A DNA stretch of 64,000 nt from Candidula unifasciata (Eukaryota; Mollusca; Gastropoda; Stylommatophora; Geomitridae): contig CAJHNH020002001.1 of assembly GCA_905116865.2 (NCBI GenBank), positions 677,619 through 741,618 of the forward strand, in the 5' to 3' direction. Of this stretch, positions 6,901-9,900 are shown one piece after another. Each line of letters opens with the position of its first letter. Position 1 is the stretch's first letter. Under the pieces are notes generated by a model, which was not told where the DNA came from, did no database searches, and saw only the letters and a list, made by a program, of their open reading frames with translations. Both the position numbers and the translations under genes were made by a program.

Positions 6901-9900
6901 CACAGGGTTATAGTAGCTCTGCTGGGCGTTTGATGAAGACAAAGCATTTGGACTGCCAGAGAAATATGGTACAGGATGGTTAATTAACAGGTGGGAAAAC
7001 ATAAGCAACAACAACAACAACAAATTATAACTGGATACAAATAAATGGTTACTTCTTCTTCTTCTTTGTGTTTACTGGCTGTAAATGTGAACTCTCGTGC
7101 AAAGTTCTGGTTGTTTGTCCACTTTGGAACTTTAGTCTTGTTCCAGAGCTTGAGTCCTGTGTGCACATCCACTTTACAGATTTGGCTTATTTCTATGCAG
7201 ACTGTTGATTCCTCGCCTCTCAGGCAGATGCACTCTGACTTCGAAGGAAACACCCCTCATTAGTAGACTTTAATGACATGCTTGTTAGGGGCGGGAGTGC
7301 CCCCCCCCCCCCCCCCCCCCTCCCCACAAAACGCCCTAGAACTCACAGAGGAAGAAAATTATGTTAACTATTGTTAGTTTGTTTCAAATTGTTTTGAGTC
7401 ATGGCAGTATAGTAGCTAGATGCTCGCCTGCCCGCCAAAAGGTTCTGGGTTTGAATCACAGATTTTTGTTTCTTCAAAATGTATGGTGGCTTCCAAAGCA
7501 AATCCTGACACTCAAAGAAATTATCCTTAATCCTTTCACCACGAACAAATCTTTAAAAATTACTTTCTTAGAAACTTCACTAAGGATACTAACCACTATG
7601 ATTGTACATATTTTACACAGTACCAACCTGTAATAGGATTGTTGCTGATTCCCATACGAAGGTTGCTGTGTGTAGCCAGGCTGAATGTAGTTTTGTCCAG
7701 AGTAGGTGTCAACTCCATAGGCAGATAGTGATGCAGGGTTGTGGGGGTACTTGTGAGACAAACCTGCAGGAGAAACAGAAACATAGGCAGATAGTGATGC
7801 AGGGTTGTGGGGGTACTTGTGAGACAAACCTGCAGGAGAAACAGAAACATAGGCAGATAGTGATGCAGGGTTGTGGGGGTACTTGTGAGACAAACCTGTA
7901 GGAGAAACAGAAACATAGGCAGATAGTGATGCAGGGTTGTGGGGGTACTCGTGAGACAAACCTGTAGGAGAAACAGAAACATAGGCAGATAGTGATGCAG
8001 GGTTGTGGGGGTACTCGTGAGACAAACCTGTAGGAGAAACAGAAACATACGCAGATAGTGATGCAGGGTTGTGGGGGTACTTGTGAGACAAACCTGTAGG
8101 AGAAACAGAAACATCGGCAGATAGTGATGCAGGGTTGTGGGGGTACTCGTGAGACAAACCTGCAGGAGAAACAGAAACATAGGCAGATAGTGATGCAGGG
8201 TTGTGGGGGTACTTGTGAGACAAACCTGCAGGAGAAACAGAAACATAGGCAGATAGTGATGCAGGGTTGTGGGGGTACTTGTGAGACAAACCTGTAGGAG
8301 AAACAGAAACATAGGCAGATAGTGATGCAGGGTTGTGGGGGTACTCGTGAGACAAACCTGTAGGAGAAACAGAAACATCGGCAGATAGTGATGCAGGGTT
8401 GTGGGGGTACTTGTAAGACAAACCTGTAGGAGAAACAGAAACATACGCAGATAGTGATGCAGGGTTGTGGGGGTACTTGTAAGACAAACCTGTAGGAGAA
8501 ACAGAAACATCGGCAGATAGTGATGCAGGGTTGTGGGGGTACTCGTGAGACAAACCTGCAGGAGAAACAGAAACATAGGCAGATAGTGATGCAGGGTTGT
8601 GGGGGTACTCGTGAGACAAACCTGTAGGAGAAACAGAAACATCGGCAGATAGTGATGCAGGGTTGTGGGGGTACTTGTGAGACAAACCTGCAGGAGAAAC
8701 AGAAACATAGGCAGATAGTGATGCAGGGTTGTGGGGGTACTTGTGAGACAAACCTGTAGGAGAAACAGAAACATAGGCAGATAGTGATGCAGGGTTGTGG
8801 GGGTACTCGTGAGACAAACCTGTAGGAGAAACAGAAACATCGGCAGATAGTGATGCAGGGTTGTGGGGGTACTCGTGAGACAAACCTGCAGGAGAAACAG
8901 AAACATAGGCAGATAGTGATGCAGGGTTGTGGGGGTACTCGTGAGACAAACCTGTAGGAGAAACAGAAACATCGGCAGATAGTGATGCAGGGTTGTGGGG
9001 GTACTTGTGAGACAAACCTGCAGGAGAAACAGAAACATAGGCAGATAGTGATGCAGGGTTGTGGGGGTACTTGTGAGACAAACCTGTAGGAGAAACAGAA
9101 ACATAGGCAGATAGTGATGCAGGGTTGTGGGGGTACTCGTGAGACAAACCTGTAGGAGAAACAGAAACATCGGCAGATAGTGATGCAGGGTTGTGGGGGT
9201 ACTTGTGAGACAAACCTGTAGGAGAAACAGAAACATAGGCAGATAGTGATGCAGGGTTGTGGGGGTACTCGTGAGACAAACCTGTAGGAGAAACAGAAAC
9301 ATCGGCAGATAGTGATGCAGGGTTGTGGGGGTACTTGTGAGACAAACCTGTAGGAGAAACAGAAACATCGGCAGATAGTGATGCAGGGTTGTGGGGGTAC
9401 TTGTGAGACAAACCTGTAGGAGAAACAGAAACAAAAGATCAAATTATCTGGAACAATTCCATTAGCTTCTAGTTAGTTGTTGGTAGCTTTCTGTCTTTGC
9501 AGATAATGGTGTTTTATTGATTGTGTTATACCCTATGTGGGTTCAGGGGGCCCAATTTAGGGATTGGGGGAAGTATCTCACAAAAGGCATTTAATTAAAA
9601 GTGTTCCCTTTGAAATAAGTGTGTTTCCCTAAGATGTAAGGAAATAATAACCTGAGAGGTAAGAACACAAACGGTCTGCATACAAACAAGCCAGGTCTGT
9701 AAAATGGCCATGCATGTAACGAAACAAAAGTTCTGGAACTAGACCAAAGTCCAGAAGTGGATGAACAACCAGAACTATTGGGGGTCTCCTTGGTAAAGTG
9801 GTCAATTGTCCACCTGAAAGCTGCGGGTTCATTTTATGTGTTCACAAGTGTAATAGTTACAGAGACCCTTGGAGACTGATGTTGAAACTATGGAATTTGT

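Follow-up and report, generated by a model that had tools for sequence, protein, structure and literature searches.

How a core coat protein gene comes to carry 26 near-identical copies of one of its own 3′ splice sites, and which of these copies the spliceosome takes, is the question raised by a 66-bp minisatellite of the snail Candidula unifasciata. The array lies in a 64,000-nucleotide stretch of contig CAJHNH020002001.1 (the window; all positions are those of this stretch) within SEC31A, a gene of the COPII coat that occupies the minus strand from a start codon at 43409 to position 1 and runs about 10.3 kb past the start of the window (stop near -10345). Exon-by-exon tblastn matched residues 1-1176 of Physella Sec31A with small gaps; residues 1-1049 are matched within the window on the minus strand, with a short gap, and the final exons were located outside it, as far as 10.3 kb from its start. 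Splice junctions were fitted to the homologue, four of them (near the array and at exon 22) being placed by hand. The stitched frame obtained with the last acceptor of the array, acceptor 26, encodes 1198 amino acids with one terminal stop and extends from the WD40 N-terminus to the conserved C-terminus. In combination with a PDB match of the product to 7sul_A, Sec31A (E 3.5e-107), and with the deposited protein, these alignments bear out the identity of the gene given in the original prediction, which had been made from the letters of the DNA.

In the resulting model of 26 coding exons, a count that includes an exon at 840 to 917/920, the array straddles the junction of intron 19 with coding exon 20. 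Its location inside SEC31A had been recognised correctly, whereas the donor exon in front of it, formerly called exon 20, is coding exon 19 by the present count. This exon (11202..11580, minus strand) ends in phase 1 at 11202, reading ...CAC AAA G|GTAGGT (donor CAAAG|GTAGGT). On the evidence of the deposited protein, coding exon 20 (7628..7763, minus strand, 136 nt) runs from acceptor 26, with its first exonic base at 7763, to the donor CAG|GTTGGT, and coding exon 21, which contains a conserved stretch, is placed at 6745..6952 on the same strand. The linker that bears the array lies upstream of what we take to be the Sec23-binding, GAP-stimulating part of Sec31 (AETAWNDPP, exon 21). Small tandem splice sites also occur further along the gene, namely donors 6 nt apart at 5370/5376 at the end of exon 22 and a CAGCAG acceptor at 917/920 at exon 23, and in both cases either site keeps the frame.

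Tandem Repeats Finder reported the array at 7716-9433 with a period of 66, 26.0 copies, 97% matches, 0% indels and a score of 3212; this span is 2 nt longer than exactly 26 units, which occupy 7716..9431 on the minus strand. On that strand each unit reads TTTCTGTTTCTCCT(A/G)CAG, that is, a polypyrimidine tract and acceptor, followed by 48 nt derived from exon 20, GTTTGTCTCACAAGTACCCCCACAACCCTGCATCACTATCTGCCTATG, with few variants. CAG|GTTTGT is present in 26/26 units at a spacing of exactly 66, and the tract TTTCTGTTTCTCCT together with this motif is invariant throughout. Both the 26 exact steps and the make-up of each unit, as first described, were thus confirmed by the repeat search and the comparison of units. 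The first exonic base after acceptor 1 is 9413, and the remaining acceptors follow at steps of 66 bp, the last at 7763. The units vary somewhat in sequence: nine distinct versions, differing at five of the 66 positions, are arranged from the 5′ end in the order aababcdbebcdbefgbcheibbchh, in which a five-unit block, bcdbe, is duplicated (units 5-9 and 10-14), a length that was reached in 36/5000 shuffles. On translation, four of the five variable positions alter an amino acid, position 62 being the sole silent one, and H, K or Y of the unit peptide is changed in 18/26 units, with units 24-26 unchanged. An exact 36-nt pattern taken from one unit variant had eight matches in the genome, all of them within the SEC31A array.

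Because the exon 19 donor is in phase 1, all acceptors share one phase (G|GT TTG TCT) and 66 nt equal 22 codons, the frame is kept whichever acceptor is chosen, and the stitched model agrees with the original prediction on this point. The stretch between acceptors 1 and 26 (7764..9413, minus strand) belongs to intron 19 when splicing takes acceptor 26, and would add 550 codons with acceptor 1. The product of acceptor 1 would have 1748 amino acids, no internal stop and one terminal stop, compared with 1198 for acceptor 26, so the ceiling of about +550 residues proposed earlier holds. No stop occurs in any of the three sense frames of the array, and the open frame is therefore uninformative about coding.

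The strength of these signals was assessed with matrices for splice sites and branch points and a U1 sequence, none of them trained on this snail, so that the scores have meaning as relative values only. The array acceptors reach 10.2 bits, units 1 and 26 alike, and only two of the 24 acceptors in the SEC31A model score higher. They are not chance occurrences as splice signals, since no more than 1.1% of the 2777 intronic AGs of the gene score as high, only five of these lying outside the array. A consensus scan with the branch-point matrix located a candidate, TTTGATC (9437..9443, minus strand), which lies outside the array, 26 nt before acceptor 1 and not separated from it by any AG. In the later units that were scanned (2, 15, 16, 17 and 26), branch-point-like sequences occur 57 nt (CTCAC/CTTAC, with an AG four bases behind) and 32 nt (ATCAC) before the acceptor, both lying in the exon-derived portion of the unit before. 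With a branch-point-like sequence, a tract and CAG apiece, the units would each constitute a full acceptor module. The acceptor anatomy had been read correctly at the outset; overlooked were the branch-point candidates, the dual AG|GT motif and the precedents of UBC, IFI6 and ABCA7 that are considered below.

The deposited Candidula unifasciata SEC31A protein, the only product of this gene that came to light, has a single unit and lacks VSVSP, a peptide which every product with several units must include; the deposited model therefore uses acceptor 26. The 1198-residue product is identical to this protein apart from 28 additional residues that the deposited sequence has at another exon junction. 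VSVSP was present in 0/211 proteins among the matches listed, which included the best 120 of 1511 from a search admitting the 1748-residue length. In an alignment of 21 proteins chosen from the 211 (18 named molluscs including Candidula, and three others), each has at most one unit in the slice compared, where KYP is common to 20/21 and the following Y-G to 13/21. With at most one unit in the aligned homologues, acceptor 26 gives the ancestral length. A search of the protein database with a 263-residue query returned one match among 1192 candidates, from Plakobranchus, and no mRNA fragment from Candidula itself. One-unit and multi-unit transcripts would differ in the sequence that follows the unit joined to exon 19, GAGTTGACACC in the former and TTTCTGTTTCTCC in the latter. 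Biomphalaria Sec31A carries a different protein repeat (variants of GPSPSVYNPA) slightly downstream in the same proline-rich region, which suggests that this region of Sec31A tolerates changes in length.

Exon size was considered as a further guide to acceptor choice. In genes with long introns, the spliceosome pairs sites across short exons, a behaviour referred to as exon definition. Acceptors 26 to 23 would give exons of 136, 202, 268 and 334 nt, respectively, and acceptor 1 an exon of 1786 nt. These four acceptors are favoured because the resulting exons fall within the range of 63-379 nt spanned by the other 24 modelled exons of SEC31A. Against the last acceptor as the principal one stand the branch-point candidate of acceptor 1, the acceptor that a first-AG rule would favour, the equal acceptor scores (10.2) and a possible bias of the annotation pipeline. 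According to the genome report, homology models and transcripts were combined on the masked genome (PMC8496239), and a pipeline of this kind, its homology models coming from single-copy species, could have favoured acceptor 26 irrespective of the actual splicing. Drift of the upstream units is weak support for the last acceptor, since 8/26 units are unchanged and an unchanged last unit is expected by chance in 31% of cases.

The reading that we favour, to which we assign a probability of roughly two in three, is that a minisatellite has copied an entire 3′ splice site and for the most part is spliced out with the intron, perhaps with a short ladder of isoforms in +22-residue steps. A 66-bp segment straddling the boundary of intron 19 with exon 20, and including the first 48 nt of the exon, would have been duplicated in tandem and expanded to 26 copies, each bringing a complete 3′ splice site with its branch-point-like sequence, polypyrimidine tract and CAG. 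Such an expansion may have been tolerated because, with units of 22 codons in one phase, no acceptor breaks the frame. We infer that splicing proceeds mostly via the last copy, the one nearest to the remainder of exon 20, which would produce the 136-nt exon of ancestral length, and that the upstream copies are treated as intronic. One of the next few copies may be taken in a minority of transcripts, which would so gain steps of 22 residues.

Splice sites multiplied by tandem repeats have precedents in other genes. Turri et al. in 1995 reportedly found that a minisatellite of IFI6 (6-16) yields multiple splice donors. In a later sentence citing that work, two downstream repeat units are described as being used as splice sites (PMC4526556); the snail array is a candidate for the same use of repeat units as alternative sites, those of IFI6 being on the donor side. 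In the account given of the ABCA7 intron 18 VNTR (PMC5954066), the minisatellite unit likewise holds a real exon splice site that is repeated along the array, as unit 26 of the snail holds the acceptor of exon 20. The ABCA7 array lies on the donor side, with 25-bp units, a polymorphic copy number of about 12 to 427 and a shift of frame when a unit is retained, whereas the snail array is on the acceptor side and in frame. Outcomes reported for ABCA7 include, among others, canonical splicing, retention of one unit, use of a cryptic acceptor and exon skipping (PMC5954066). Human UBC is described as a tandem array of dual-specific splice sites that generates a ladder of isoforms (Duan et al. 2024, PMC10809524). 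As in UBC, every unit of the snail array has AGGT at the splice position (26/26), and the unit length is a multiple of three (66 nt), so that any choice keeps the frame. The UBC array lies within coding sequence and has 9 units of 228 nt, with a variable unit number by RT-PCR, whereas the 26 units of the snail extend across an intron-exon boundary and have a strong polypyrimidine tract and a putative dual use. The canonical outcome of ABCA7 and the ladder of UBC are thus both precedented; for the snail array we favour predominant use of acceptor 26, possibly accompanied by a short ladder.

A related phenomenon is intron gain by tandem duplication, which has been reported to copy the branch site, polypyrimidine tract and 3′ site, with potato RdRp and the 24-bp AGGT repeats of fission yeast as examples (PMC4974935). 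The snail array resembles it in that a parental intron-exon junction is copied together with these three elements, and a duplication of this sort would have given rise to the array. Unlike in intron gain, no new intron is evident from the deposited snail protein, and none between duplicates is needed to explain it; intron 19 is merely longer, with 26 copies. Among the open-licence papers in PMC that were listed, no acceptor-side array of comparable kind was recognised. The statement that no described gene was known with so many identical in-frame tandem acceptors has to be narrowed in view of the repeated splice sites of UBC, IFI6 and ABCA7. Relative to these known systems, the snail array is characterised by the combination of its position on the acceptor side, its preserved frame, its high copy number and its AG|GT motif.

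One of the other readings is an acceptor-side ladder of dual-specific sites, in which the choice among 26 AG|GT motifs is stochastic or stepwise, the Sec31A linker, situated between the solenoid and the Sec23-binding part downstream, varies in steps of 22 residues within a population of proteins, and copy number differs between snails. We regard it as unlikely; if it were true, splice-site competition would be readable in one natural molecule.

Somewhat more doubtful is a ratchet-like scheme in which each CAG|GTTTGT serves first as an acceptor and, once spliced to exon 19, becomes a donor, so that further rounds lead to units farther downstream, ending with the last one. Such rounds could drain inclusion products to normal length, and skipping of exon 20 could occur as well. 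Besides AG|GT in every unit, this scheme can draw on the strength of CAG|GTTTGT as a donor, which is 1.69 bits versus 1.95 for the exon 20 donor CAG|GTTGGT, and on a U1 pairing of -7.5 kcal/mol that is mid-range for the gene (12/24 modelled donors stronger, 12/24 weaker); dual-specific introns are also reported to be enriched 8.4-fold in human tandem repeats (PMC10809524). However, typical donors have a purine at +3 and an A at +4, neither of which is present in GTTTGT; the site regenerated after joining exon 19 (AAAG|GTTTGT) pairs more weakly with U1 (-6.0); and, with those of the array counted in, 4.4% of the 2837 GTs in introns of the gene reach at least the score of GTTTGT. Removal of 66 nt would moreover make a very short intron, and skipping of the 136-nt exon 20 shifts the frame. 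The ratchet-point consensus of recursive splicing is a 3′ site immediately before a GTRAGT donor; GTTTGT, which departs from this donor, takes that place in 26/26 units.

That one SEC31A exon yields up to 26 proteins, as originally predicted, is not supported. Broad use of many acceptors, with a Sec31A family ranging from normal length to +550 residues, is improbable in our estimate, even though the 26 near-identical acceptors share one phase in a frame free of stops, just 2/23 other acceptors score higher and the repeated-site array of UBC is reported to give an RT-PCR ladder (PMC10809524). It would require exons of up to 1786 nt, and it conflicts with the single unit of the deposited protein and with the 0/211 proteins containing VSVSP among the matches listed.

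An assembly error in the number or order of units, the array being real and of another length or polymorphic, is given little credence. The genome was assembled from 25.6x PacBio coverage with wtdbg2, Racon and Pilon according to its report (PMC8496239), noisy long reads and short-read polishing within a repeat being the conceivable sources of error, and the duplicated five-unit block could be real or an effect of assembly; yet a read N50 of 9.9 kb easily spans the 1.7-kb array, and units that vary at five positions in mixed order are unlike a simple artefact. Constitutive use of acceptor 1, which would give a snail Sec31A with 550 extra repeat residues, is very improbable despite TTTGATC 26 nt upstream with no intervening AG and a frame open throughout, as it is opposed by the deposited protein, the 1786-nt exon, the residues changed in 18/26 units and the uninformative nature of that frame.

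Purifying selection on the repeat as protein was considered and found unsupported, given four nonsilent positions out of five, 18/26 altered units and openness in all frames. A protein function of the repeat likewise appears to be counted against by the altered units, the open sense frames and its absence in the aligned relatives. Selection to keep the acceptors was also considered: the variable positions avoid the tract, CAG and GTTTGT, yet homogenisation of the array explains this equally well, and by a hand calculation five random positions of 66 miss the 17 critical ones with a probability of about 0.2.

The gene itself is rich in repeats, with 12 minisatellite-type arrays (period of at least 9, at least 2.5 copies) filling 10% of its 53.8 kb. 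When founders were placed at random in 20,000 trials, at least one covered a splice site in 28%, and a minisatellite that includes an acceptor is for this reason not extraordinary in SEC31A. Retention of the frame would add about one in three. The 26 in-frame copies in a core gene are striking. Among the repeats of the gene, a 22-bp minisatellite of 32.9 copies in intron 1 (39543-40265) has long stop-free stretches in three minus-strand frames, and those at 28687-29117 and 32009-32619 begin 15 and 39 nt after exons 7 and 5, respectively. Elsewhere in the window, long poly-C tracts occur at 15930-16020, 25441-25468 and about 7300-7320, the longest covering 91 positions with a 91% match. Minus-strand open reading frames at 47211-51138 resemble, by eye, parts of a non-LTR retrotransposon (endonuclease, reverse transcriptase and RNase H), and a 32-bp tandem repeat of 17.7 copies (63435-64000) reaches the end of the window.

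RNA-seq from an adult and a juvenile snail is reported to have been used in the annotation (project PRJEB41346; PMC8496239), and these deposited reads could answer the choice of acceptor without new bench work, the five variable positions helping to place them. With 26 near-identical, evenly spaced, in-frame 3′ splice sites in a core coat protein gene, the array offers a natural experiment on the choice of the spliceosome among competing sites, and an example of an intron-exon boundary turned into a minisatellite that has left the gene unbroken.
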